From positions 1 to 64,000 of the forward strand of contig PUNE01000062.1 of NCBI GenBank assembly GCA_003551665.1: a DNA stretch of 64,000 nt, read 5' to 3'. Both the position numbers and the translations under genes were made by a program. The stretch's first letter is position 1. Every line of letters begins with the position of its first letter. This document shows positions 1 to 14,860 of this stretch, one piece after another. The notes under the pieces were generated by a model. It made no database searches and was not told the origin of the DNA. It saw only the letters and a list, made by a program, of their open reading frames with translations. This DNA comes from Halobacteroidaceae bacterium. Its GTDB lineage: Bacteria; Bacillota; Halanaerobiia; B1SED10-174.

Positions 1-392
1 AGAATGGTTACCTCGTTTTCCCGGGCCAGCTTATCCATTTTTTCGGCATATTCTGGTTCCTGGGCCCAGGGGTAGGCCATTTCTTCTGCTATGGAAATCA
101 CGTTATGGCCTGCCCTCGCAGCCATTTCAATCTGGGGATATACCTCCCGGACAAAAGAAGATGTGGCAATCAGGACAACATCAGCCCTGGTCTGCAGGAC
201 TTTTTCAGGATCATCACTTACCTTAACTCCAAGGTTATCGGAACCCAGAAGAGCACCCAGGTCCTTACCTACTTTTTCTCCAGGACGTTCAATGCCTCCT
301 ACCAGTTCAACGCCTTCTTTCTCCAAAAGATACTTGCCCATTCCGCTTCCCATGGCTCCAAGGCCCCATAGTATGACTTTTACCTTTTCCAA
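1..392 (-). CDS. ord: 2,4-diaminopentanoate dehydrogenase, N-terminal part (runs off window start)
   Basis: Not in the ORF track. Reverse-complement reading from a TTG at 392 behind GGAGGTG gives LEKVKVILWGLGAMGSGMGKYLLEKEGVELVGGIERPGEKVGKDLGALLGSDNLGVKVSDDPEKVLQTRADVVLIATSSF..., a dihydrodipicolinate-reductase-like NAD(P) fold typical of the ornithine-pathway enzyme. Confidence 0.75.
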   Translation of the reverse strand, partial: MEKVKVILWGLGAMGSGMGKYLLEKEGVELVGGIERPGEKVGKDLGALLGSDNLGVKVSDDPEKVLQTRADVVLIATSSFVREVYPQIEMAARAGHNVISIAEEMAYPWAQEPEYAEKMDKLARENEVTI

Positions 393-619
393 GTTAAACA
401 CCTCCTGAGATATTTTAATCCGTTCTAACCTACTACATTATATGCATAAGAGCATAGAAAGAACCCTCTTACCCCGAAGGCAAGAAGGCGTTTCAAACTT
501 CCACTTATTATCTTCATTGCAACATCGGGGATTCCTGCCTGAATTTTTGCTTTTTTAAAAATTTTATACACTTTCGTATATTCCCCGTCAAAAACAAAGA
601 CGGAACAGGCCGCCTTTAT

Positions 620-1834
620 TTACTCCCCGGAAAATCCGCAGATATCGATTATTAACCCGGTATAAACCTTCAGGGCTATAATCAGGTTTTCTATTGCTAT
701 GCCTTCATCTGCCGCATGGGCCTTTTCCAGGAGACCGGGGCCGAAGACAACAGAAGGAATTGAAAGGTCCCTGACCAGAAGGGCGGCATCGCTCCATCCC
801 CGGAAAGAAGTTGAACCAGGGTCAGTGCCCGTAAATTCTTTTAAATTTCCCCGCAGGGAATTTACCAGGGGAATATCCGGGTCCACATCCAGGGGGATAT
901 TACGCAGGGGGCAGGTCCGGTCCTCCATTGACAGCAGTTCATACTGATATCCGGGATAGGCCAGCTTCAACCGGTTCAGGATTTGTTCCACGTCCTGATA
1001 AAGGCTCTCCAGGCTTTCCTCTGGTGTCCAGCGCCGGTCCAGTTCCAGAAAACAAACCTGGGGAACAATATTGGGATCATCCCCACCGGCAATCACTCCC
1101 ACGTTTATGGAAGGACTTCCTACCAGGGGGTGATGCTTTTTCTGGAGGGTTTCGTTGAGTTTTTCAATTTCTCTGGCCACCCTGGCAGCCATATATATCG
1201 GATTACGACCCTTGTCCGGTGTGCTTCCGTGGGCGGATTTGCCCCGGATAATAACCTTCATCCACTCCATACCCTTGTGGGCAACGCAGATCTTTAAATT
1301 TGTAGGCTCTCCCACAACAGCATAATCAACCTTAAAACCTCTTCGAACCAGATCTACAGTCCCCAGGGAGCACTGCTCCTGGTCAATTACACCCGTAAAG
1401 TGCAGGTCTCCCCTCAGTCTTAATCCCGACCTTTTTACCAGGACCATTGCTAAAAGCATTGCTGCCAGGGAACCCTTCATGTCCACTGCTCCAAGGCCGT
1501 ATAAAAAGCCGTTTTTTAACAGGGGTTGATAGGGAGGAATGGCCATGTTGTAGGGTGGAACTGTATCCAGGTGGCCATTGAAAGCAAGGCTTTTCCCCCC
1601 TCCTTCTCCGGGCAAAGATGCCAGGATATTGGGTCGGTTTTCCATAATATAATCAAGTTTGAGGTCTTCAAAACCCTCTTCCTGGAGATAATTGAAGATA
1701 AACTGCGCCAGACGATCCTCCTGCCAGTCTACCTGTTTATGGCTTGGGATTTTTATCAGTTCCTTCAGTAAATCAAGCAGTTCATCCCGGTCAAATAGTT
1801 GCAGCACTCTATCCCTGGCCTGTTCTTTTTTCAC
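620..1834 (-). CDS. M20 family metallopeptidase/deacylase (ArgE/DapE/ACY1-like)
   Basis: Motifs FNGHLDTVPP, GLGAVDMKGSLAAM, GEPTNLKICVAHKG. The long ORF to 2020 overlaps the upstream gene; GTG at 1834 (VKKEQARDRVLQLF) is the more plausible start. Confidence 0.85.
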   Translation of the reverse strand: MKKEQARDRVLQLFDRDELLDLLKELIKIPSHKQVDWQEDRLAQFIFNYLQEEGFEDLKLDYIMENRPNILASLPGEGGGKSLAFNGHLDTVPPYNMAIPPYQPLLKNGFLYGLGAVDMKGSLAAMLLAMVLVKRSGLRLRGDLHFTGVIDQEQCSLGTVDLVRRGFKVDYAVVGEPTNLKICVAHKGMEWMKVIIRGKSAHGSTPDKGRNPIYMAARVAREIEKLNETLQKKHHPLVGSPSINVGVIAGGDDPNIVPQVCFLELDRRWTPEESLESLYQDVEQILNRLKLAYPGYQYELLSMEDRTCPLRNIPLDVDPDIPLVNSLRGNLKEFTGTDPGSTSFRGWSDAALLVRDLSIPSVVFGPGLLEKAHAADEGIAIENLIIALKVYTGLIIDICGFSGE

Positions 1835-1865
1835 TCCCCATTCCCCTTTCCCCGCTGTGATCCTT

Positions 1866-3437
1866 TTAAAAACCTTTCCGCAAAACCTTACCGGCCTGAA
1901 AACCCGCGACCTCGCCATTTTGGCATACAATTTTACCTTCGATAAGGACTTTCTCAATACCTTCAGGAACTTTCGCGGGGTTTTGGAAAGTTCCTTTAAA
2001 ATTGACCTGATTCTCATCAAAGATTACCAGGTCCGCCCAGTACCCGGGAATAATTGCTCCTCTTTTCCCCATCCTGAATGTTTTTGCGGGGAGTAAAGTC
2101 ATTTTGTAGATTGCCTTTTCCAGACTAACAATTCCTTTCTCCCTGACTATTTCACCCAGAACCCGGGGATAAGAGCCAAAACTCCGGGGATGAGGCTTTT
2201 CTCCCACCAGGATGCTGTCCGTTGCAATGGAACAGAAGGGATCTGCAAATATCTTTTTCCAGTCTTCTTCGCACTGATCAAAAAGAACCACTGTACCGGA
2301 ACCTTCATTTTCCAGGACCAGGTCAATAAAAAGATCTGCACAACCCGCTCCCCTTATTTCGGCTGCTTCTTTGATGGTTTTTTGTTCCAGTTCACGGGTT
2401 CGGGGAAGACTGTTCAACATTATGTTATCCCATCCGGTAACAGTTACTAAAAGATCTTCTCCTTGTTCTAAGTCTCTCTTAATTTTTTCTCGAATTTCAG
2501 TTCTCTCGAGCTTTTTAAGGACTTCCTCCCTCTCCTGGTCCTGAACCCACTGGGGCAGCAGGGCCCACAACATTGTACTTCCCGCCTGGTAGGGGTACTG
2601 ATCCAGAGTAACCTTAACGCCTTCTGACCTGGCTTCACCAATCAGGCCCAGGGTCTCTTCTGCCCTGCCCCAGTTATCCTTGCCGTCAACCTGGTGGTGG
2701 GAAAAATGAATATGAACCCCTGTTTCCCGGCCCAGTTGAAGGGTCTCTTCTACTGCCTCAATAATACGGTCAGCTTCACTACGAATATGGGTAACGTAGG
2801 GAACACCAAAATCAGCTGCAACATAGCAGAGTTCTTTTAATTCTTCGAACCCCGCATAACAGCCCGGGGCATAAATCAGGCCAGTTGAAATCCCCAGGGC
2901 TCCCTGTTTGAAACCTTTCTTCAGGCTTTTCACCATTTTTTCTTTTTCTTCCCCTGTCCATTGCCTTGATTTTAAGCCCATTACTCCCAGCCTTAAACTT
3001 CCATGGCCAATTAAAGTTCCCACATTTAGCATAGGTCCTGCATTTTCCAGGGCAGTCAGGTAATCTTCTACTTCCGGCCAGCTGGAAGGTTCCTCTTTTC
3101 CCAGGACAGGAGCCAGAACTTCTGAAACTAATTCAGCCTTTTCCTCCGGAATGGGGGCCGCAGAGAACCCGCAGTTCCCCACAATTTCTGTAGTAACTCC
3201 CTGCCTGATCTTTCCTCCAACCCCGCCTTTGAGGACCATTAAATCCGAGTGGCTGTGCAGGTCAATGAAACCCGGAGCCAGGACAGATCCTCCCGCATCA
3301 ATAGTTGGGCAATCCTTTTTTTCAATTTTATTCCCGACTTCCCTGATTATCCCCCCTGTTATTAGTACTTCCCCCCAGAAAGAAGGACCACCAGTTCCAT
3401 CTACGATTTTTGCATTTTTAATAATCAGGTTTTCCAT
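1866..3437 (-). CDS. N-acyl-D-amino-acid deacylase (D-aminoacylase), amidohydrolase superfamily
   Basis: MENLIIKNAKIVDGTGGPSFWGEVLI..., GFIDLHSHSD, GNCGFSAAPI, LIGHGSLRLGVMG, typical of D-aminoacylases. Confidence 0.88.
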   Translation of the reverse strand: MENLIIKNAKIVDGTGGPSFWGEVLITGGIIREVGNKIEKKDCPTIDAGGSVLAPGFIDLHSHSDLMVLKGGVGGKIRQGVTTEIVGNCGFSAAPIPEEKAELVSEVLAPVLGKEEPSSWPEVEDYLTALENAGPMLNVGTLIGHGSLRLGVMGLKSRQWTGEEKEKMVKSLKKGFKQGALGISTGLIYAPGCYAGFEELKELCYVAADFGVPYVTHIRSEADRIIEAVEETLQLGRETGVHIHFSHHQVDGKDNWGRAEETLGLIGEARSEGVKVTLDQYPYQAGSTMLWALLPQWVQDQEREEVLKKLERTEIREKIKRDLEQGEDLLVTVTGWDNIMLNSLPRTRELEQKTIKEAAEIRGAGCADLFIDLVLENEGSGTVVLFDQCEEDWKKIFADPFCSIATDSILVGEKPHPRSFGSYPRVLGEIVREKGIVSLEKAIYKMTLLPAKTFRMGKRGAIIPGYWADLVIFDENQVNFKGTFQNPAKVPEGIEKVLIEGKIVCQNGEVAGFQAGKVLRKGF

Positions 3438-3470
3438 CTGTTTACTCCTTCCCGCCCAAACACTTCCACC

Positions 3471-4757
3471 CTAAATCAACCCCAGCAGCCGGGGTACAGT
3501 AAGTGAGATTGCAGGAACAAAGGTGATCAAAAACAGTGCTGCAAGCACGGCAAGAATAAAGGGTAATATTTCTCTCGATATTTTTTCCAGGGAAAGCTTG
3601 GATATTCCACATGCCACAAAAAGGCAGGCCCCCAGGGGTGGTGTCATCAATGCAATATTAAGGTTTACAACCATAATAATGCCAAAATGTAGAGGATGAA
3701 CTCCCATGCTTACTGCAAGGGGATGGAGTATGGGGCCCAGTATTATTATTCCTGCAGTCATGTCCATAAACATTCCCAAAATCAGCATTATTGCATTCAT
3801 AATAAGCAATACGATGTAGGGGTTTTCACTTATGCTCAGAATTGCTCCACCAACCAATTCTGGAATCTGTTCCATGGAAAGGATCCAGCCCAGAATTGCT
3901 GCAGAAGCAAGGATAATAAAAACCGAACCATTGCTTCTGACCATCTGGTAAAGCAGGTCAGGAATATCTCTTAACTTGAGGTTGCGGTAAATAAAAAATC
4001 CAACAATTAAAGCATAAAATACTGCAACGGCAGCAGCCTCAGTAGGAGTAAATACTCCTCCCAGAATCCCCCCCAGGATAATCAAGGGCATCAGGATAGG
4101 AATAATCGCACCCTTTGCACTTTGGCCAACTTCTTTTATGCTTGCTCTTTTTTCACCAATGGGATAATTCCTTTTTTTAGAGATAACCCCGGCAAAAACC
4201 ATCAGGATTAACCCTACCAGAACTCCAGGTACAATCCCCGCTGCAAAAAGCCCGGCAATGGAAACCCTCATCAATGATCCATAAATAACCATGATGATAC
4301 TCGGGGGAATTATGGGACCGATAATTGAAGATGCTGCGGTAACAGCAGCCGCAAAGCCCCGATCATAGCCTTCTCTTTCCATTGAAGGTATCAGCATGGT
4401 TCCCAGGGCAGCAGTATCAGAGACAGCAGCCCCTGTCAAACCCGCGAAGAAAATGCTTACCAGGATATTAACGTGGGCCAGCCCCCCTCTGATGTGACCA
4501 ACAAGAGCATTGGCCAACCTGACCAGTTTGTGAGTTATTTCAATTCGGTTCATAATATCTCCGGCCAGCATAAAAAAAGGCATCGCCATTAAGGCAAAAA
4601 GGTCAACCCCGGAATAAAAACGCCCGGGAACCATTGTCATTAGATGTGGTGCGTCCATTCGCAAAAAGGTCAAAACCGCAGTTATTCCCACCGCAAAAGC
4701 TATTGGAGTTCCTGCTAAAAGAAGTAAAAAGAAAACAATTACCATAAATTCAACCAT
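3471..4757 (-). CDS. dctM: TRAP transporter large permease (DctM)
   Basis: 428 aa, multi-TM, GLTGAAVSDTAALGTMLIPSMEREGYDRGFAAAVTAASSIIGPIIPPSI motif. Confidence 0.93.
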   Translation of the reverse strand: MVEFMVIVFFLLLLAGTPIAFAVGITAVLTFLRMDAPHLMTMVPGRFYSGVDLFALMAMPFFMLAGDIMNRIEITHKLVRLANALVGHIRGGLAHVNILVSIFFAGLTGAAVSDTAALGTMLIPSMEREGYDRGFAAAVTAASSIIGPIIPPSIIMVIYGSLMRVSIAGLFAAGIVPGVLVGLILMVFAGVISKKRNYPIGEKRASIKEVGQSAKGAIIPILMPLIILGGILGGVFTPTEAAAVAVFYALIVGFFIYRNLKLRDIPDLLYQMVRSNGSVFIILASAAILGWILSMEQIPELVGGAILSISENPYIVLLIMNAIMLILGMFMDMTAGIIILGPILHPLAVSMGVHPLHFGIIMVVNLNIALMTPPLGACLFVACGISKLSLEKISREILPFILAVLAALFLITFVPAISLTVPRLLGLI

Positions 4758-4759
4758 GT

Positions 4760-5251
4760 TTATTCCTCCCCTCCGGTCAGGTCAATTACCACCTGCAGTA
4801 TAAGCTGGATCAGGGTAAATAGTCCGGTAAGAGGAACTGCGAGAATTGGCCAGAACATACTTATTCCCAGAGCCGGGGAAACCTGAACCTGGGATCTTAA
4901 AGCCATCTGCCAGCCATAAACTATCAGTATATAGAGAAAATAGCCCATTAGAATATTCGTCATTAATCGAATAATCAGTCTTGCCTTCTCGGGAAAAAGG
5001 TTAAAAATCACATTTATTCGCACATGTTCCCTGTGGCGGAGGGTAATGCTGGCGCCAATCAGAACTACCCAGATCATTAGATAGCGAGCTCCTTCTTCTG
5101 TCCATAAAAGAGGGTCATTTAAAACGTACCGCCAGAAAGTTCCCGCCAAAACAACCACAACCATTGCCCCTCCCATTATTATCAAGGGGTAAGCCGTTAT
5201 TTTTTCCACTATATCTGCGGTTTTTCGAGCCAGGGAATTGATTCCTTGCAA
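4760..5251 (-). CDS. dctQ: TRAP transporter small permease (DctQ)
   Basis: 163 aa, four TM segments, TEEGARYLMIWVVLIGASITLRHREHVRI signature. Confidence 0.9.
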   Translation of the reverse strand: MQGINSLARKTADIVEKITAYPLIIMGGAMVVVVLAGTFWRYVLNDPLLWTEEGARYLMIWVVLIGASITLRHREHVRINVIFNLFPEKARLIIRLMTNILMGYFLYILIVYGWQMALRSQVQVSPALGISMFWPILAVPLTGLFTLIQLILQVVIDLTGGEE

Positions 5252-5314
5252 GTCTTTTCACCTCTCTCCAGTAAGAGGGAGGGGGACAGTCCCCCTCCTC
5301 CTCACCACAAAATC

Positions 5315-6355
5315 TTATTTGGAAAATAGTGCTTTTTGCGCATTTTCCACTGCAGCTAATAGTTCATTAGCCAGGTCGACACCGGCCTGCCCAAGGTCCT
5401 CTTCAATAGTTTCCATTACTGCGGGAACAGCAATGTCGCGGAAAGCAGCAAGTTCTTCAATTGATGGAGCATAAACTTCTATACCTGCTTCTTCCAGGAA
5501 CTGAACTCCCTGCTCAGTTGCATCTGCAAGTAATTTGGTTCCATTGGCTACAAGGTTGGCAGCATAAAGGGCATCGTTAAAAATTTCCCGCTGTTCATCT
5601 GTAAGGTTCTGGTAGAAGGTTTCACTGGTTACCCACCAGTCAGCACCCACCATGTGATTGGTCAGAGTTGCATACTTCTGGACTTCCTGGAGTCCTCCAA
5701 TTGCCATAATGGGAATGGGGTTGTGCTGCCCACCCACAACTCCCATCTGCAGGGCAGAATAGAGTTCATCCCAGGGGACCGGAGTTGCCGAAGCTCCAAG
5801 GGAGCGCATCATAGCGATATGGCTTGGAACGGACATGGTGCGGAAACGAATTCCCTTCATATCGTCAGGAGTTTTAATTGGTCGCTCATTATTGCTCAAT
5901 ACATAAAATCCGGCAGCGTTTACACTTAGGAGCCTGAAACCGGTTTTTTCCAGTAAATCTTCCCTAAGTTTTTGCCCAAATTCACCGTTAAAAACCTCAT
6001 AGAAAACTGAATGGTTGGGGAAGGCAAAGGGAAGGTCAACAACATTAATCAGGGGATAAAATGGGGCAATACCTCCGATTGAAGCCACATTTACCTGGAT
6101 AATATCCCCGAGGGTCTGGTCCATTCTTTCCCTCTGATTGCCCAGAGCACTGGCGGGATAAATCCTCACAGTCATTTCCCCGCCGGATTGGGTTTCCACA
6201 ATATTTTTAAAAACAACAGCGGCTGCATGAACACTTGAGTTTGCAATATCTCCTGGTTCCTCGTGGGCAAGTCTGATTTCCAATACCTGAGCCATGGCTG
6301 TTGAGCTCATCAGGGCAATACACAAAACCATGGCAAAAATTAATAATTTTTTCAC
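5315..6355 (-). CDS. dctP: TRAP transporter substrate-binding protein (DctP)
   Basis: Signal peptide, RLAHEEPGD..., GIRFRTMSVPSHIAMMRSLGASATPVPWDELYSALQMGVVGGQHNPI. Confidence 0.93.
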   Translation of the reverse strand: MKKLLIFAMVLCIALMSSTAMAQVLEIRLAHEEPGDIANSSVHAAAVVFKNIVETQSGGEMTVRIYPASALGNQRERMDQTLGDIIQVNVASIGGIAPFYPLINVVDLPFAFPNHSVFYEVFNGEFGQKLREDLLEKTGFRLLSVNAAGFYVLSNNERPIKTPDDMKGIRFRTMSVPSHIAMMRSLGASATPVPWDELYSALQMGVVGGQHNPIPIMAIGGLQEVQKYATLTNHMVGADWWVTSETFYQNLTDEQREIFNDALYAANLVANGTKLLADATEQGVQFLEEAGIEVYAPSIEELAAFRDIAVPAVMETIEEDLGQAGVDLANELLAAVENAQKALFSK

Positions 6356-6497
6356 TTGATCAAAACCCCTTTCTTTTACTTATTGTTTTGCAAAATCTTC
6401 TCTGGCCAATCCTGCTGCCGGCCACCTCCTTTGAAACTTTTTTTATTTAACCAGGCACAGACCATTAAAAACAAAATTTGTTGACAGAAAAAGAATA

Positions 6498-6513
6498 TGC
6501 AACAACTGTACCA
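6498..6513 (-). promoter_or_regulatory. Sigma-54 (RpoN) -24/-12 promoter upstream of dctP
   Basis: Minus strand reads TGGTAC-AGTTG-TTGCA, one mismatch to TGGCAC-N5-TTGCA; about 140 bp upstream of the dctP start. Confidence 0.75.
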
Positions 6514-6570
6514 ACAAAAACGAAAACAAAAAGAACCCTGCAGCAAAAAGAAAAAAAGCGAAAATAAAAG

Positions 6571-6590
6571 AACCCCTCCGAACAGGGGTT
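6571..6590. terminator. Intrinsic terminator hairpin after the sigma-54 regulator gene
   Basis: AACCCCTCCGAACAGGGGTT with T-rich flank. Confidence 0.55.
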
Positions 6591-6609
6591 TTCTTAAATA
6601 ATAAAAAAA

Positions 6610-6646
6610 TTCCCGATTTCGGGAACCCATTTCCCGGAAACGGGAA
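6610..6646. promoter_or_regulatory. Two tandem enhancer-like palindromes (candidate activator-binding UAS)
   Basis: TTCCCGATTTCGGGAA (6610-6625) and TTCCCGGAAACGGGAA (6631-6646); same 6-bp arms, centres 21 bp apart, about 100-150 bp upstream of the sigma-54 promoter. Confidence 0.75.
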
Positions 6647-6649
6647 TTA

Positions 6650-8377
6650 TTATATTCCCAGATTTTTTATTTTGTTATACAGGGTGGTTTTCCCAATACC
6701 CAGGGCGCGTGCAGCTTTCAATTTCCCCTCTGTGTCCCGGCCATATATATCCAGGTGCTCCCGGATTATTTTCCTTTCATAATCTTCAAGGTTTTCCCTC
6801 AGGTTCCCACCGGAAAAAGAAATCCGGGGAGAAGCCTTGATCATCCTCGCCGGGAGGTTTTCAGTTGTTATATATGCTGATGGTTCCATATTTATGGCGT
6901 ACTCAATTACGTTTTCCAGTTCCCTGACGTTTCCAGGCCAGTCATACTCTTCCAGGGTCCAGCGGGCTCCTTCAGTCACTCCCTGAATTTTTTTATGCAA
7001 GCGGTTGTTGTATTTCTGGATAAAATGCTCCATTAAAAGCATAATATCTTCACGTCTTTCCCGTAGCGGGGGAATTTCCATCGGAATAACATTTAAACGG
7101 TAAAAAAGGTCCTCCCGGAACTTGGAAACCCTGATCAGTTCTTCCAGGTCCTGGTTGGTAGCGGTTAATATCCTTACATCAACATCAATTTCTTTTACTC
7201 CGCCAATTCGAAAAAACTTTCTGTCCTGGATAACCCGGAGGATTTTTACCTGTAATTCCAAAGGCATATCACCAATTTCGTCCAGGAAAATGGTTCCCCT
7301 GTGGGCAAGCTCAAATTTCCCGGGCTTGCCCCCAGCAAGAGCTCCGGTAAAGGCACCTGCTTCGTATCCAAAAAGTTCGCTTTCAAGGAGCTCTCCCGGA
7401 ATGGCCGCACAGTTAATGGAAACAAAGTTTTCTTTTTTCCTCTGGCTGGCCTGATGGATTGCTCGGGCAAAAAGTTCTTTTCCTGTTCCGCTCTCCCCCT
7501 GGATTAAAACAGAAGAACTGCTTCCGGCAACTCTGAGGACCTTCTCTTTAACCTCCAGCAAAACCGGGCTTTTTCCCACAATCTGATCCAGAAAACTACC
7601 TCCATCTGCCTTTGGTTGCCCAAGCAGACTGTGAACTTCCTGGATACTCTTTATGCTTGCTACAACCCCTGAAACCCGAACCCCTTTTATTATGGGATTA
7701 GCGGTTACCAGGAGCCGCAAAGAGCTGTTTTCCCCCTGGTGAAATACTTCCCTGTTACGGAATCCTTCTCCATTCACCAGAACTTCAAGCAGGTCCCCTG
7801 CGGGAAAAATTTTATTTATATGAGAACCCCAGACCCTGCTGGGTCTTTCTCCAAGCAGTTTTCCTGCAGACTGGTTGAAATTTGTTACCATTCCCTGCTT
7901 ATCAATAGCTATTATTCCCTCGTCAATGGAATTAATAACAAGGCCAAGCTGTTCGGTGACCATCCTGATGTCTTCAAAACCTGTTTGTTCTATAAGTTTT
8001 CCCGTAATTAGTTCTCCGATAAAGCCGGAAAGGGTATAGAGTTTTTCTTTATTTTCTAAAAATTCCCTGCCTCCCCCGGCCAGGATTAAAAATCCCAGGG
8101 CTTTTTCTTCAACAAAAAGGGGCAAAACAAAAACTGGACCGGGACTGTAATTCTTTTCCTTCTTATTTCTTCTCTGGTTGTGGGAAAAAAGAGGTTCGTG
8201 AGTCTCTCGGGTCTTTTCCATCAATTCAATGTATTCTTTCCAAAACCGTTTATTCCAATCTCCTGAAGCAGCAATTAGCTCATAGTCTTCATCAAAAAGA
8301 AACGCTTCAAAGCTAAAAAAAGCCGCAAAAGTACTGAGGATATTGCTGCAGCTGTCCTTGATCTTTTTCAACCCCAT
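6650..8377 (-). CDS. Sigma-54-dependent transcriptional activator (GAF-like/PAS, AAA+, Fis-type HTH)
   Basis: GESGTGKELFARAIH, GAFTGA loop (YEAGAFTGALAGG), GTIFLDEIGDMPLELQVKILRVIQ, C-terminal Fis HTH (AARALGIGKTTLYNKIKNLGI). Confidence 0.95.
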   Translation of the reverse strand: MGLKKIKDSCSNILSTFAAFFSFEAFLFDEDYELIAASGDWNKRFWKEYIELMEKTRETHEPLFSHNQRRNKKEKNYSPGPVFVLPLFVEEKALGFLILAGGGREFLENKEKLYTLSGFIGELITGKLIEQTGFEDIRMVTEQLGLVINSIDEGIIAIDKQGMVTNFNQSAGKLLGERPSRVWGSHINKIFPAGDLLEVLVNGEGFRNREVFHQGENSSLRLLVTANPIIKGVRVSGVVASIKSIQEVHSLLGQPKADGGSFLDQIVGKSPVLLEVKEKVLRVAGSSSSVLIQGESGTGKELFARAIHQASQRKKENFVSINCAAIPGELLESELFGYEAGAFTGALAGGKPGKFELAHRGTIFLDEIGDMPLELQVKILRVIQDRKFFRIGGVKEIDVDVRILTATNQDLEELIRVSKFREDLFYRLNVIPMEIPPLRERREDIMLLMEHFIQKYNNRLHKKIQGVTEGARWTLEEYDWPGNVRELENVIEYAINMEPSAYITTENLPARMIKASPRISFSGGNLRENLEDYERKIIREHLDIYGRDTEGKLKAARALGIGKTTLYNKIKNLGI

Positions 8378-8451
8378 TATTGGGCCTCCTCAAGCTAAAT
8401 TATTTTATACTTCGTTTATTTTACTTCTTTTCCTTTATTACCTTGAAGATT

Positions 8452-9132
8452 CTAACCAAGTAATAATTCCTCAAGGCCCTCAATATCTTTTATTGTGACC
8501 TTTTTGCGGTCAAAAGAAATCAGGCCTTCTTCCTGCAACCCTGCAAGTTCCCGGGAAAGGGAGGGCCTGGGAATGTTAAAATAATCGGCAAGTTCTTTCC
8601 GGGAGAATTTCCAGTTAAAACTCGGTTTTCCCTCCTTTTTTGTTTCCCGGAGGAGATAATGCGCAATTTTTTGCCTGATAGTCCCAAGAGAGAGAAGTTC
8701 AATCTTCTCCGATAGCATGATGACCCTGTTGGAAATGGTTTCCATGTAACGCAATAGAATATCGCCGTCCTTTTGGAATAAAGCCAGCAGATCTTCCCGG
8801 GGAAGCCGGAAAACCTCTGTTTTTTCAAGGGCAATTATATCGGCAGGATAGCTGGGATCAACAGAAAACAGAACGCTCTCCCCAAAAGCCTGCCCTTCTT
8901 CAAAGGTAGCCAGAGTAACGGTTTTGCCGGTAGAAAACGATTTTTTTACAGCGACCCGTCCGGAAAGAACTATCCCCAGGAAACCGGCTTTATCCCCCTG
9001 GGGAACTATTTTTTCCCCGGGCTGAAAAGATTTTACTAACAGTCTGCTCCCCTCCAGGAGCTCTTCCAGTTTCCCTGGAGTTTTGTCCTGAAAAATATAG
9101 CATTTTTCTGTCAAAAAAAATTTATTATTCAT
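8452..9132 (-). CDS. Crp/Fnr family transcriptional regulator (HcpR-like by context)
   Basis: cNMP-binding fold plus HTH (FSRKELADYFNIPRPSLSRELAGLQEEGLISFDRKKVTI); divergent from hcp. ATG at 9132 has a GGAGGAGG RBS and is preferred over 9150. Confidence 0.88.
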   Translation of the reverse strand: MNNKFFLTEKCYIFQDKTPGKLEELLEGSRLLVKSFQPGEKIVPQGDKAGFLGIVLSGRVAVKKSFSTGKTVTLATFEEGQAFGESVLFSVDPSYPADIIALEKTEVFRLPREDLLALFQKDGDILLRYMETISNRVIMLSEKIELLSLGTIRQKIAHYLLRETKKEGKPSFNWKFSRKELADYFNIPRPSLSRELAGLQEEGLISFDRKKVTIKDIEGLEELLLG

Positions 9133-9144
9133 TTTCCTCCTCCG

Positions 9145-9156
9145 TAACATTTGTTA
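9145..9156. promoter_or_regulatory. Palindromic operator candidate between Crp/Fnr gene and hcp operon
   Basis: TAACATTTGTTA (perfect 5-bp arms) in the divergent intergenic region. Confidence 0.45.
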
Positions 9157-9206
9157 TCGCATTATTCCTATCGATATACTATACTTTATATTAAATCGTC
9201 GGGGAG

Positions 9207-9890
9207 GTGTTGATAATTAAACAACTACGGAAGATTATCGAAATAGACCAGGAAAAATGCGATGGCTGCGGCCTCTGTGCCGAGGCCTGTCATGAAAAAG
9301 CAATAGAGATCGGCGATGGAAAAGCCCGTCTGGTAAGTGAATCCTACTGTGACGGCCTGGGTGATTGCCTGCCCGCCTGTCCCCGGGATGCTATTAAGAT
9401 TGTAACAAGGGAGGCTGATCCTTTCGACGAGGAAGCCGTCCAGGCCAGGGTTGAAGGAAGGTGCTCCTCGGCAAGTCCCTGCAATATTGCTGCTGCCTCT
9501 AACCCTTCCTCCTCAGCTTTAATGCAATGGCCCATTCAAATCCACCTGGTTCCACCGAGGGCAGAATATTTTCAGGATGCTCAGTTGCTAATTGCCGCTG
9601 ACTGTACTGCCTTTGCAGCTCCAGGTTTGCAAAAAGGTTTAATGGAAAATCGGGTAACTTTAATTGGTTGTCCCAAGCTTGATAACATCCAGGCTTATCT
9701 CGATAAGTTAACCGGAATTTTTAGGGACAACAGCGTCCAGCACATCAGGGTTTTAAGGATGAGTGTTCCCTGCTGTGGAGGGATCGTTGGACTCGTGGAA
9801 AAAGCCCTGGAAAGGGCCGGTAAGGATATCCCCAGGGAAACTATAATCCTGGGAACAGACGGAAAAATCCAGGAAAAGAAAGGAGCTTAA
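9207..9890 (+). CDS. 4Fe-4S ferredoxin-domain protein, hcp partner
   Basis: Two 4Fe-4S motifs: CDGCGLCAEACHEKAI and CDGLGDCLPACPRDAI; directly upstream of hcp. Confidence 0.88.
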   Translation: MLIIKQLRKIIEIDQEKCDGCGLCAEACHEKAIEIGDGKARLVSESYCDGLGDCLPACPRDAIKIVTREADPFDEEAVQARVEGRCSSASPCNIAAASNPSSSALMQWPIQIHLVPPRAEYFQDAQLLIAADCTAFAAPGLQKGLMENRVTLIGCPKLDNIQAYLDKLTGIFRDNSVQHIRVLRMSVPCCGGIVGLVEKALERAGKDIPRETIILGTDGKIQEKKGA

Positions 9891-9893
9891 TCA

Positions 9894-11540
9894 ATGACAA
9901 AAATGTTTTGTTACCAGTGCCAGGAAGCCTTAAAGGGAAAGGGGTGTGATATTCGAGGTGTATGTGGCAAATCTCCAGAGGTTTCCAATCTCCAGGACTT
10001 ACTCGTTTACCTGCTAAAAGGCCTTGCCCTGTTAAGCCAGAAAGCCCGCATTGCAGAAGTTGACCCTGGAGGGGCTCCCCGTTTTATTACCGAGAGCCTT
10101 TTTGCTACAATTACCAATGCCAATTTTTCTGAAGATGATTTCGTAAAAGGGATTGATAAAGCCCTGGAATTGCGTGAAGAGTTAAAAAACAAAATTCAGG
10201 ATTCGGGCCGGAACCTATCTATCCCTGATCACGATGCTCTAAACTGGAAAGGATCCGGAACAGAGAGTTTCCAGGAAAAAGCCGGCAAAGTTGGCGTCCT
10301 CAGAACTGAAAAGGAAGATATCCGTTCCCTGAGGGAACTTTTAACATATGGGCTGAAAGGTATCAGTGCCTATCTGACCCACGCCCGGGTTCTTGGCAGG
10401 GACAACCCTGAAATTTCCCGGTTCATGGAGAAAGCTCTGGTTGCAACTATTGATGAAAGCATCTCTTCAGAAAAACTTACCAGTCTTGTTCTCGAATGCG
10501 GTGAATACGGGGTTAAGACCATGGACCTTCTGGATAAAGCCAATACCGAAGCATATGGAAATCCTGAATTAACCAGGGTGAATATTGGAACTGGTAGTAA
10601 CCCCGGGATTCTGATCAGCGGACACGACCTCAAAGACATGGAAGAACTGCTGGAACAGACCCAGGAAACTGGAATTGATGTTTACACTCACAGCGAAATG
10701 CTTCCCGCCAACTACTATCCCGCTTTTAAAAAATACGATCATTTTATAGGTAACTATGGCAATGCCTGGTGGGAACAGGGCAAAGAATTCAAAAGCTTTA
10801 ACGGCCCTATTCTGATGACCACAAACTGTATTACCCCCGTAAAAAAAGATTACAAAGATCGTCTTTTTACAACCGGTGTTGCAGGTTACCCGGGCTGTGA
10901 ACACATTGAACCCGGTCCCGATGGCCAAAAAGATTTCTCGCCCCTGATTGCCCGGGCCCGCGAATGCAATCCCCCAGAAGAAATTGAAACAGGCGAGATA
11001 GTGGGCGGTTTTGCTCATGGACAGGTTATGGCCCTTGCAGATAAGGTTGTAGAAGCCGTGAAATCGGGGGCAATCAGGCAGTTCTTTGTAATGGCTGGCT
11101 GTGATGGGAGAATGAAAAGCCGCGATTACTATACAGAGTTCGCCCAAAAGCTTCCCCGGGATACTGTTATCCTGACTGCAGGCTGTGCAAAATACCGCTA
11201 TAACAAGCTTCGCCTGGGTGACATTGATGGAATTCCCCGGGTCCTGGATGCAGGGCAGTGCAACGATTCCTATTCCCTGGTGGTAATTGCCCAAAAGCTA
11301 AAAGAGGTTTTTGAACTTAACGACATAAACGAACTCCCAGTTTCTTACAATATTGCGTGGTACGAACAAAAAGCGGTAATTGTTCTGCTTGCCCTTCTTT
11401 CCCTTGGAGTCAGGAATATCAAGCTTGGCCCCTCGCTGCCCGCTTTCTTTTCGCCAGGAGTTGGCAGGGTCCTGCAGGAGAAGTTTGGCCTGAACACAAT
11501 TGGAAATGTCGAAGAAGACCTTGAATACTTTCTTGGTTAG
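9894..11540 (+). CDS. hcp: Hydroxylamine reductase / hybrid cluster protein
   Basis: [90 protein letters not shown]. Confidence 0.97.
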
Positions 11541-11545
11541 AAGGA

Positions 11546-11590
11546 AAACGCCCGGGCCACTGAGGTCCGGGCGTTTCTGTTTTTTATGTC
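11546..11590. terminator. Bidirectional terminator between hcp and OTC
   Basis: AACGCCCGG-N10-CCGGGCGTT followed by T-rich tract. Confidence 0.75.
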
Positions 11591-12549
11591 TGATCTCCCA
11601 TTGTTAGGGCCATCATTGCCATTGCTGTATGCATGCGGTTTTCAGCCTCATCGTAAACTACCCGACCGCGGGGATCTTCCACAACGTCCTTGGTTATTTC
11701 TTCGCCATAAATTGCGGGCAGACAGTGCATTACTATGCAGTCATTCTTGGCCAGGCGGAGCAGATCCATGTTGACCTGGTAGGGAAGGAATATCCTTCGG
11801 CGGTCTTCTTTTTCCTTTTCCTGCTCCTCGGGGCTACCGGGACCCATGCTCAACCAGACGTCGGTATAGATAACATCAACATCTTTTACGGCTTCTTTGG
11901 GGTCATCAATTAGATTGACACTTCCTCCCGTTTCTTCAGCAAAGCGCTTGGCATCTTCAACTGCATCTTTACGGGGGTTATAAACTTCGGGGATTGCCAG
12001 GTTGATGTGCATCCCAACTTTTGAAGCAGCAAACATCAGGGTATGAGCCATGTTGTTTCCATCACCAACAAAGGCCATCTTTATTCCCTTCAGGCAACCT
12101 TTTTTCTCGTAGATAGTCAGAAGGTCGGCCAGTCCCTGGGAAGGATGAGTAAACTCAGAAAGCCCGTTAAGTACAGGAACCCTCGATTTTTCTGCAAGCT
12201 CAACCACGTCTTCATGGGCAAAAACTCTGGCCATTATTCCATCTACATATCGGGAAAGAACCCTTGCGATATCCTCAGTTGTCTCTCTTTTGCCCAGCTG
12301 AATATCATCGGGGCCGAGATAGACAGCATGACCGCCCAGGTTGCTCATTCCAACTTCAAAAGCTACCCTGGTCCGCAGAGAGGGCTTTTGAAAAATCATG
12401 CCCAGTGATTTACCTTCCAACACCCTGCTCTTTTGACCACGGAGTTTTTCCATCTTCAGGGTTTCTGCAGTTTTTACCAGCTGCCAGATTTCTTCGGTTG
12501 TAAGATCCCTTAGAGTAAGGATATCTCTCCCTTTCAAACTTACTGCCAT
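11584..12549 (-). CDS. argF: Ornithine carbamoyltransferase
   Basis: FQKPSLRTRVAFEVGMSNLGGHAVYL, FTHPSQGLADLLTI, FVGDGNNMAHTL, YTDVWLSMG, HCLPAIYGEE. Confidence 0.92.
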   Translation of the reverse strand: MAVSLKGRDILTLRDLTTEEIWQLVKTAETLKMEKLRGQKSRVLEGKSLGMIFQKPSLRTRVAFEVGMSNLGGHAVYLGPDDIQLGKRETTEDIARVLSRYVDGIMARVFAHEDVVELAEKSRVPVLNGLSEFTHPSQGLADLLTIYEKKGCLKGIKMAFVGDGNNMAHTLMFAASKVGMHINLAIPEVYNPRKDAVEDAKRFAEETGGSVNLIDDPKEAVKDVDVIYTDVWLSMGPGSPEEQEKEKEDRRRIFLPYQVNMDLLRLAKNDCIVMHCLPAIYGEEITKDVVEDPRGRVVYDEAENRMHTAMAMMALTMGDQT

Positions 12550-12619
12550 TTACAACGCCTCCTTTTTTATTTTAAGTGTTTTGCTTTCCCACCTTATTAT
12601 ACTCAATCTGAGGTAATTT

Positions 12620-13690
12620 TCAAAGCACAACCTTGTTAACATAGGGCGAGGTCATCGCCCGGAGTAAATTGCCATAATCAACTGTAAAACTGAGGTAATC
12701 CCCGATCCGTAGTTCATCAGGATTATCATTTATATCAACAAGCAGGTGATCGCTGCTTGCACCGAGAATATCAACACCTGGGTCCATTGGTGTCAGGCCA
12801 TCGGGCTGAATATCCTGTTCCCCCACGGCCAGAATTCCTCTCCGCCTTAAACCCCTATCTTCGGGGTTTTTTGGAACGCGACCGAAAGCATCGACTCCAA
12901 CTTTTCCAATGGGTACTGATGGTTTTACCCTGGCCTCGATTAATTCAGCCTGGAGAACAAAAGTGTCTGCCCGGGTACCCGGGAAGGGCTCGGAAAGTGC
13001 TGTATCGTTGCCGATTAAAATGGTTTCCCCTACCCGGAGGTGGTTGATCCCCCGCGGGATCCCTGTTCCAAGAAGGTGCAGGGAGCTGCTGTTACCCCCG
13101 GAAATGTAGCACAGTTCCTTTCCCAGGTCCTGCTGGATTTCCTGGGCAATATCAACCAGTTCACCCAGGTTTTCTTCAGTGGGTAATATTCCACCATAAC
13201 AGGTGAGATTGGTTCCAAATCCCTGCAGGTAAACACCGGGCAGGCTGTTTACCACGCGGGCCGCTTCCCTCACATCATCGGGCAATAACCCTTCTCTTAG
13301 ATCTCCCAGGTCAACCATGAGCATTATGCCGTGTTTTTTTCCCTGCCTTTCTGCCGCACTGCTCAGAGCCTTTATTACCGAGATTTCCGAATTAAGACTG
13401 GCATCGGCAGTCTCCACAACCTCCTCTACCCTGCTGAGCATGGGAAGCCTTAAAAGAAGAAGAGTAACATCATTACCAAAATAATTGCGAAGATTTCGCA
13501 GGTTGCTCAGCCGGGAATCAGCTAAACCGTTTACTCCCCCTTCCAGCATTGCTTTGGCAACATGGACATTTCCACAGGTTGCTTTGGTTACACCGGTTAT
13601 ACTGATCCCATCCCTGAGAGCCAGCTGGGAAATAACGTGGGCATTTTCTTTAATTCTTCCGGTATGGATTATTATCCGCGGAAATGACAT
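12620..13690 (-). CDS. orr: Ornithine racemase (alanine/ornithine racemase family PLP enzyme)
   Basis: MSFPRIIIHTGRIKENAHVISQLALRDGISITGVTKATCGNVHVAKAML..., LMVDLGDLREGLLPDD, SGGNSSSLHLL. Confidence 0.8.
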   Translation of the reverse strand: MSFPRIIIHTGRIKENAHVISQLALRDGISITGVTKATCGNVHVAKAMLEGGVNGLADSRLSNLRNLRNYFGNDVTLLLLRLPMLSRVEEVVETADASLNSEISVIKALSSAAERQGKKHGIMLMVDLGDLREGLLPDDVREAARVVNSLPGVYLQGFGTNLTCYGGILPTEENLGELVDIAQEIQQDLGKELCYISGGNSSSLHLLGTGIPRGINHLRVGETILIGNDTALSEPFPGTRADTFVLQAELIEARVKPSVPIGKVGVDAFGRVPKNPEDRGLRRRGILAVGEQDIQPDGLTPMDPGVDILGASSDHLLVDINDNPDELRIGDYLSFTVDYGNLLRAMTSPYVNKVVL

Positions 13691-13780
13691 TTACTACCAC
13701 CTTTCTTTTATTAAATTCCCCTCAAAAAATGGGGGTTTTGATTGCATAATCAATGAAAAAAGAAGAAGGAGGCGATTAAC

Positions 13781-14860
13781 ATGAACTACCATCTGATAAT
13801 ATCTGGTGAAACCGACCTTGATAGCCCCATGAGCCCGGCCAGAATTTTCGGGGGGATTGAACGAACTCGCCGCCTTGACCTTTTGGTTGAGCTACATAAG
13901 GGGACCAATCCAAACATTTTAAGATCTAAAAACTGTTCACTGAGGACTGACCTGGAACTTATGGAAAAAGCAGGCCTGGTCCAGGCCCAGGGTTCCTCTT
14001 ATCGCCCCTCTTTTTTCCTGGTCCTGGAGGAGGAAATGGAATTTATTCCTGAAATCGCCAGGGAAATTGCCCGAGGGTTATTTTGCCCGATCCAGGATTG
14101 GTTTAGTGAAATAAGGAACTGTTTTCAGCAATTATCCATCAGCCGTTTTGCTGGCTGGGATGAAATGGGCTTTCTGCTGATCGGTTATTATCTCCTGACC
14201 CGGAGCCGCAGAAAAATTGACCTGGCTGCAGGGAAAATTCTGGAAGGAAATCCCCCGGTCCGATCCGCGGGAAGGTACTTCTTCTATTTAATCCAGACCG
14301 AATTCACCGAAATGCTGGGCAGGTTTAAGGATCGCGGCCAGGGTTTTGGAAATTATTACTGCGGAATTTTTGGAACCATCGCTGCTGAGAAAGACGGCAC
14401 CTGCCCGCCATTCGGGATTTTTCCCCTTTTCAAACAACTGGGCCCTGCCCGTGGAAAAAGGCTGGCCCTGGAAGTAATCGAAGCCTACCGGGATTATTTT
14501 TTTTCCGGACAAAAACCCCCGAAAGACATTATTCCTTTTCTTGAGAACCTTCTCCTGCTTGATTCTCAAAAAAACCCACTGGTTCCCTTCATACCTGCGT
14601 CAGATGAAGAACAATTAGCCGTGTTGGGATCAAGGCTAGGAACAAAGATTGGAACTTCTCTTGGCCAGTACTCCTCTTCCTTGCAAAATGCATTTTACAG
14701 TTTTCCCGCTTCTCGCTATTCAACCTTCCAGGAGTTTTACAACTGGTTTTATTACCTGCTTGCTGACAAATGCCTGGAATTACTGGTTGAACAGGGTTTA
14801 ATCGCCCTGCCCCCAAAAGGCTATCAGCCTTTCCTTTCTTTCAATAAGGTGTCAGTTTAA
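13781..14860 (+). CDS. Uncharacterised 359-aa protein with possible N-terminal winged-helix region
   Basis: Long ORF behind AAGGAGGCG RBS and followed by a strong terminator; no family recognised. N-terminal RTRRLDLLVELHKGTN...LRTDLELMEKAGLVQAQGSSYRP resembles a wHTH. Confidence 0.7.
   Translation: MNYHLIISGETDLDSPMSPARIFGGIERTRRLDLLVELHKGTNPNILRSKNCSLRTDLELMEKAGLVQAQGSSYRPSFFLVLEEEMEFIPEIAREIARGLFCPIQDWFSEIRNCFQQLSISRFAGWDEMGFLLIGYYLLTRSRRKIDLAAGKILEGNPPVRSAGRYFFYLIQTEFTEMLGRFKDRGQGFGNYYCGIFGTIAAEKDGTCPPFGIFPLFKQLGPARGKRLALEVIEAYRDYFFSGQKPPKDIIPFLENLLLLDSQKNPLVPFIPASDEEQLAVLGSRLGTKIGTSLGQYSSSLQNAFYSFPASRYSTFQEFYNWFYYLLADKCLELLVEQGLIALPPKGYQPFLSFNKVSV

Follow-up and report, generated by a model that had tools for sequence, protein, structure and literature searches.

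The window analysed here, a 64-kb stretch (64,000 nucleotides) of the genome of a salt-loving anaerobic bacterium (G000), carries the gene for a predicted sigma-54-dependent activator (EBP) followed on the same strand by dctP, dctQ, dctM, a D-aminoacylase-type amidohydrolase gene and an M20 ArgE/DapE-type deacylase gene, in that order (Table 1). The preliminary description of this DNA had placed an activator with a GAFTGA motif here, and the 575-residue product indeed has matches to PAS and Sigma54_activat, an AAA+ domain with both GAFTGA and Walker A, and a C-terminal Fis-like HTH. The last of these is weak, the HTH_50 match (E = 8.7e-06) scoring 25.8, just below the curated cut-off of 27. 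As listed, the M20 reading frame shares 155 bp with the end of the aminoacylase gene (1866-2020, minus strand), and its true start is probably later; the order of these two genes is swapped relative to that in G053 and G034, two of the relatives described below.

Table 1. Features of the dctP locus and their positions in the window
Feature	Position	Strand	Remarks
M20 ArgE/DapE-type deacylase	620..2020	-	true start uncertain, ORF overlaps amidohydrolase
D-aminoacylase-type amidohydrolase	1866..3437	-	
dctM	3471..4757	-	
dctQ	4760..5251	-	
dctP	5315..6355	-	TRAP solute-binding protein; target operon predicted to start here
Predicted sigma-54 promoter, TTGGTACAGTTGTTGCA	6498..6514	-	-24 GG at 6512-6511, -12 GC at 6500-6499
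Second terminator-like hairpin, AACCCCTGTTCGGAGGGGTT + CTTTTATTTT	6571..6590	-	not seen in relatives G053, G034, G056
T7 tract after hairpin of the two dyads, on EBP strand	6603..6609	-	possible intrinsic terminator of EBP gene
Proximal dyad TTCCCG-N4-CGGGAA, TTCCCGATTTCGGGAA; predicted EBP dimer site (UAS 2)	6610..6625	.	~-131 from predicted start; conserved in G053, G034, G056; half site at G042 contig edge
Distal dyad TTCCCG-N4-CGGGAA, TTCCCGGAAACGGGAA; predicted EBP dimer site (UAS 1)	6631..6646	.	~-152 from predicted start; conserved in G053, G034, G056
EBP, sigma-54-dependent activator	6650..8377	-	PAS, AAA+ with GAFTGA, Fis-like HTH; PrdR-like, under PrdR cut-off

Upstream of dctP, where an RpoN-type promoter had been proposed on the minus strand, lies the top-scoring sigma-54-like site of the entire window, TTGGTACAGTTGTTGCA. 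It has the GG-N10-GC arrangement of -24 and -12 elements, precedes the predicted target operon and is conserved at five dctP loci. Its 17-base pattern had five exact matches in the 2.87-Mb genome, and the reversed control had none. The preliminary description had made its proposal depend on the presence of rpoN, and the gene is found at G000:C148:7188. The dctP leaders of the window (6425-6436, minus strand) and of G053 (L037, approximately 13185-13196, minus strand) also share the stretch AAAGGAGGTGG-(A)CCGG, which resembles a strong ribosome-binding sequence but lies at a long distance before the start of dctP; it may belong to a small upstream ORF or have another leader function.

Between this site and the EBP gene are two 16-bp dyads, both with perfect arms, whose centres at 6617.5 and 6638.5 are 21 bp apart, as had been described previously for two palindromes with identical arms. 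The whole paired element is 37 bp long, and the best sigma-54 site lies 96-132 bp downstream of the dyads. They had been said to abut the stop codon of the activator directly; the adjacency holds, whereas direct contact does not, since the TAA is at 6652-6650 and the dyads begin 3 bp past it on the minus strand. No Rfam family matched within positions 1-14000 of the window. Other exact single TTCCCG-N4-CGGGAA sites (C51:11288 and 11621) were set aside, being inside or beside long ORFs with no nearby sigma-54 site.

Complete dyad pairs are present at the dctP loci of three relatives, G053 (a Halanaerobiales MAG, record JADQBU010000047), G034 and G056, making four such loci with the window. The EBPs or DctPs of these relatives are only 47-63% identical to those of the window (EBP, 52% in G053 and 47% in G034; DctP, 62% in both). 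In G053 and G034 the EBP, dctPQM, M20 and aminoacylase-type genes all run in one direction, and the pair sits past the EBP stop as it does in the window; what we take, from the starts of their ORFs, to be alanine dehydrogenase- and alanine racemase-like genes adjoin the G053 operon. On the EBP strand, the pair reads TTCCCGTTTCCGGGAA-ATGGG-TTCCCGAAATCGGGAA in the window, TTCCCGATTATCGGAA-ACCAA-TTCCGGGAAACGGGAA in G053, TTCCTGTTTTCCGTAA-ATTAA-TTCCTGGAAACAGGAA in G034 and TTCCCGCTTTCCGGAA-TTTTT-TTCCCGGAAGCGGGAA in G056. The 21-bp spacing is kept at all four loci and TTCC in 15 of the 16 half-sites; spacers and flanks vary.

Because a 20-base tandem pattern had been fixed from the window, G053 and G034 before the G056 locus was seen, the G056 pair, which matches it without a mismatch, counts as an independent success. 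At two or fewer mismatches the four genomes have no match besides their respective dctP pairs, and a few other sites have three. A search for the exact tandem pair in 59 genomes of the class returned only the window's own copy, because the relatives carry substitutions. With a looser pattern, a 398-genome sample of the phylum yielded matches at 0-1 mismatch only in G000; the 15 other phylum genomes that matched all did so with two mismatches, and these were treated as chance.

The promoter is conserved together with the dyads. When genome contigs were scanned with a DctP alignment, G053 was recovered again, along with G042, G056 and one distant match, and a sigma-54 site stands at all five of the closest dctP loci: besides that of the window, these are CTGGCACAATTAATGCA (G053), CTGGTATCATAATTGCA (G034), CTGGTATTATAATTGCA (G042) and TTGGCACAAAAAATGCA (G056), each of which retains GG-N10-GC. 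In the next group of dctP loci, the eight that could be analysed (L097-L099, L101-L103, L105 and L107) have neither dyads nor a good sigma-54 promoter; the only weak site is that of L103, 6 bp before its start. Dyad and promoter thus co-occur. The preliminary description had tied its proposal to conservation of the palindromes in orthologous loci and had suggested scanning the genome and its relatives for dyad pairs upstream of sigma-54 sites, and in G053, G034 and G056 the pair was found at the same spacing and with the promoter. At G056 the pair is approximately 350 bp from the promoter, and the EBP was not found in this genome (contig edge; MAG 76% complete). The dctP contig of G042 breaks within the second dyad (L089:1), suggesting that the paired palindromes interfere with assembly.

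A second family of loci in the same class (L041-L051, with corrinoid methyltransferase-type operons) encodes EBPs that are 42-45% identical to that of the window and has paired dyads of its own, TTCTCA-N3-TGAGAA at 18-bp spacing. Like those of the window, these stand at or behind the EBP stop, often overlapping the stop codon itself (L046, L049, L050 and L051), with a sigma-54 promoter 100-200 bp further on. Thirty-two of 43 copies of this dyad lie at most 500 bp upstream of a sigma-54-like site, in stretches that make up approximately 9% of the scanned DNA (22 sites x 500 bp / 126 kb); because the loci were chosen for their EBPs, the enrichment is suggestive only. Some promoters with no EBP gene ahead of them are likewise preceded by pairs (L045:3342 and L048:4305). 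From their position upstream of sigma-54 sites, in some cases away from EBP genes, and from their conservation, we infer an enhancer role for the paired dyads of this EBP group, whose genes appear commonly to carry such dyads at their 3' ends. Perfect copies also occur upstream of paralogous EBP genes at L046:936, L049:8151 and L050:6682, without a sigma-54 site in that orientation, which suggests autoregulation.

What the preliminary description did not see is that the dyads, lying behind the EBP gene, also resemble a terminator. On the EBP strand they pair with one another into a hairpin followed by a T-rich tail. This is clearest in the window, where a G+C-rich stem and T7 tract behind the ORF scored as terminator-like and a 106-nt fold of the region gave z = -2.7. 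At each of the four loci the dyads form one extended stem, being more alike as inverted copies (13-14 of 16 identical) than as direct copies (10-12 of 16); 89% of the cells of this stem pair, the folds range from -15 to -24 kcal/mol, and 5-7 of the next 8 bases are T. Ten of the 16 stem pairs are invariant and covariation is no better than shuffled, counts that carry little weight with four sequences. Wherever the EBP gene is present (three of three loci) the dyads lie behind its stop, where a terminator would also be expected, and hairpin and T-rich tail are kept. Terminator-like hairpins centred on CTCA-N3-TGAG, with stems of 12-20 bp that are longer than the dyad, also stand behind paralogous EBP genes (approximately L041:8602-8640, L045:5445-5475 and L048:6215-6260), a hint that EBP genes of this class reuse an enhancer/terminator design. 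A literature search of incomplete coverage returned no account of a UAS that also serves as the terminator of an EBP gene.

The main idea to be weighed against an enhancer is consequently that the dyads are the intrinsic terminator of the EBP gene and nothing else, an RNA hairpin with a 16-bp stem and U-rich tail that parts EBP from dctP transcription with no protein bound. The terminator-like score and fold of the window, the fold energies and T-rich tails of the four loci, the pairing along the extended stem and the position directly behind the EBP stop codon are all consistent with this. The inner stem of a hairpin, however, need not be a repeat of the outer one, and the idea is weakened because the half-sites repeat TTCC beyond what mere pairing would demand; the changes in the stem are mostly avoided, not compensated. 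The tail is weak in G034 (TTAATTAT), the G056 pair has no ORF end within the 150 bp available before it, and the equivalent pair in L046-L051 is followed, behind the EBP stop, by A and not T. Moreover, the pair tracks the sigma-54 promoter across dctP loci. Termination is thus the weaker candidate for a sole explanation, and we consider it unlikely to be one.

Binding of a different regulator, such as a LexA-like or MarR-like repressor controlling dctP or the EBP gene, deserves mention because a palindromic DNA site by itself names no protein. We regard it as quite improbable: none of the four genomes has a second match within two mismatches, which indicates that the site is local, the EBP gene is the only regulator gene kept beside the dyads, and the paralogous EBP family is laid out alike around a dyad of its own. 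Chance palindromes in a repeat-rich intergenic region might also be suspected, since single perfect 6-4-6 dyads are fairly frequent, with 35 in 64 kb, yet a pair of them with the same arms occurs once in 64 kb and arose in only 6 of 20,000 dinucleotide shuffles of region 6356-6660. Conservation in three relatives refutes this idea, to which we give practically no credence.

We propose, with considerable confidence, that the dyads serve the adjacent EBP as its upstream activating sequence, from which it would activate the dctPQM-aminoacylase-M20 operon via sigma-54. This enhancer reading is well supported by the presence of rpoN, the conserved dyads upstream of a conserved promoter, the uniqueness of the pair in each genome and the dyads of the paralogous EBPs; with it, the local circuit and the regulator recognition motif put forward in the preliminary description gain support from the three relatives. 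From what is established for EBPs in general, dimers would bind next to each other on the two dyads, at a distance of two helical turns, oligomerise on a signal, and loop to the sigma-54 RNA polymerase waiting at the dctP promoter, with ATP-driven opening of that promoter as the outcome. Judging by gene content, the operon products would provide a route for the uptake and hydrolysis of N-acyl (probably D-) amino acids, and the regulon of this EBP is predicted to consist of this one operon. Since on the EBP strand the pair also yields a hairpin ahead of a T-rich tail, termination of EBP transcription may be a further role. That the 37 bp have two jobs, as DNA the enhancer of the activator and as RNA the intrinsic terminator of the gene that encodes it, is a possibility that we advance tentatively; were it true, bound EBP could also affect EBP read-through.

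The locus closely fits the pattern described for EBPs of the Clostridiales in a comparative study in which UAS motifs were identified for 263 EBPs, falling into 39 groups (Nie, Dong and Yang 2019, PMC6615313). In that study, 65% of the EBPs have a single target operon, 32 groups have multiple UAS, and the distance from UAS to the downstream promoter is mostly 100-250 bp. The local regulons described there resemble the window in having the EBP gene beside one target operon, multiple UAS dyads approximately 100-250 bp upstream, a TGGCA-N-TTGCW promoter and a target in amino acid catabolism. The window differs in its order (Halanaerobiales), in its TTCCYG-type dyad and in its target, a TRAP and aminoacylase operon that is absent from Table 1 of that study.

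Among NCBIfam models, the best for the window EBP is PrdR, the proline reductase regulator (NF041552, residues 123-572), although the score of 446.5 bits is far below the curated equivalog cut-off of 795 bits. The PrdR motif is given as a TGT-N10-12-ACA type in PMC6615313, from which the window dyad differs, and the window operon is without prd genes. Relative to the EBPs of L041-L051, the dyad and the HTH helix both differ (SRATLYRKL there, GKTTLYNKI in the window), and these matched HTH and motif changes offer material for studying the specificity of Fis-type EBPs. The predicted switch is of a type familiar in bacteria, of which the window adds a new and well-formed case. It supplies a concrete conserved motif, TTCCYG-N4-CRGGAA paired at 21 bp, as the predicted site of an uncharacterised activator, in a host group for which few sigma-54 circuits have been described, as well as a clear one-operon regulon prediction for N-acyl amino acid uptake; a specialist would be surprised only by the possible overlap of enhancer and terminator.
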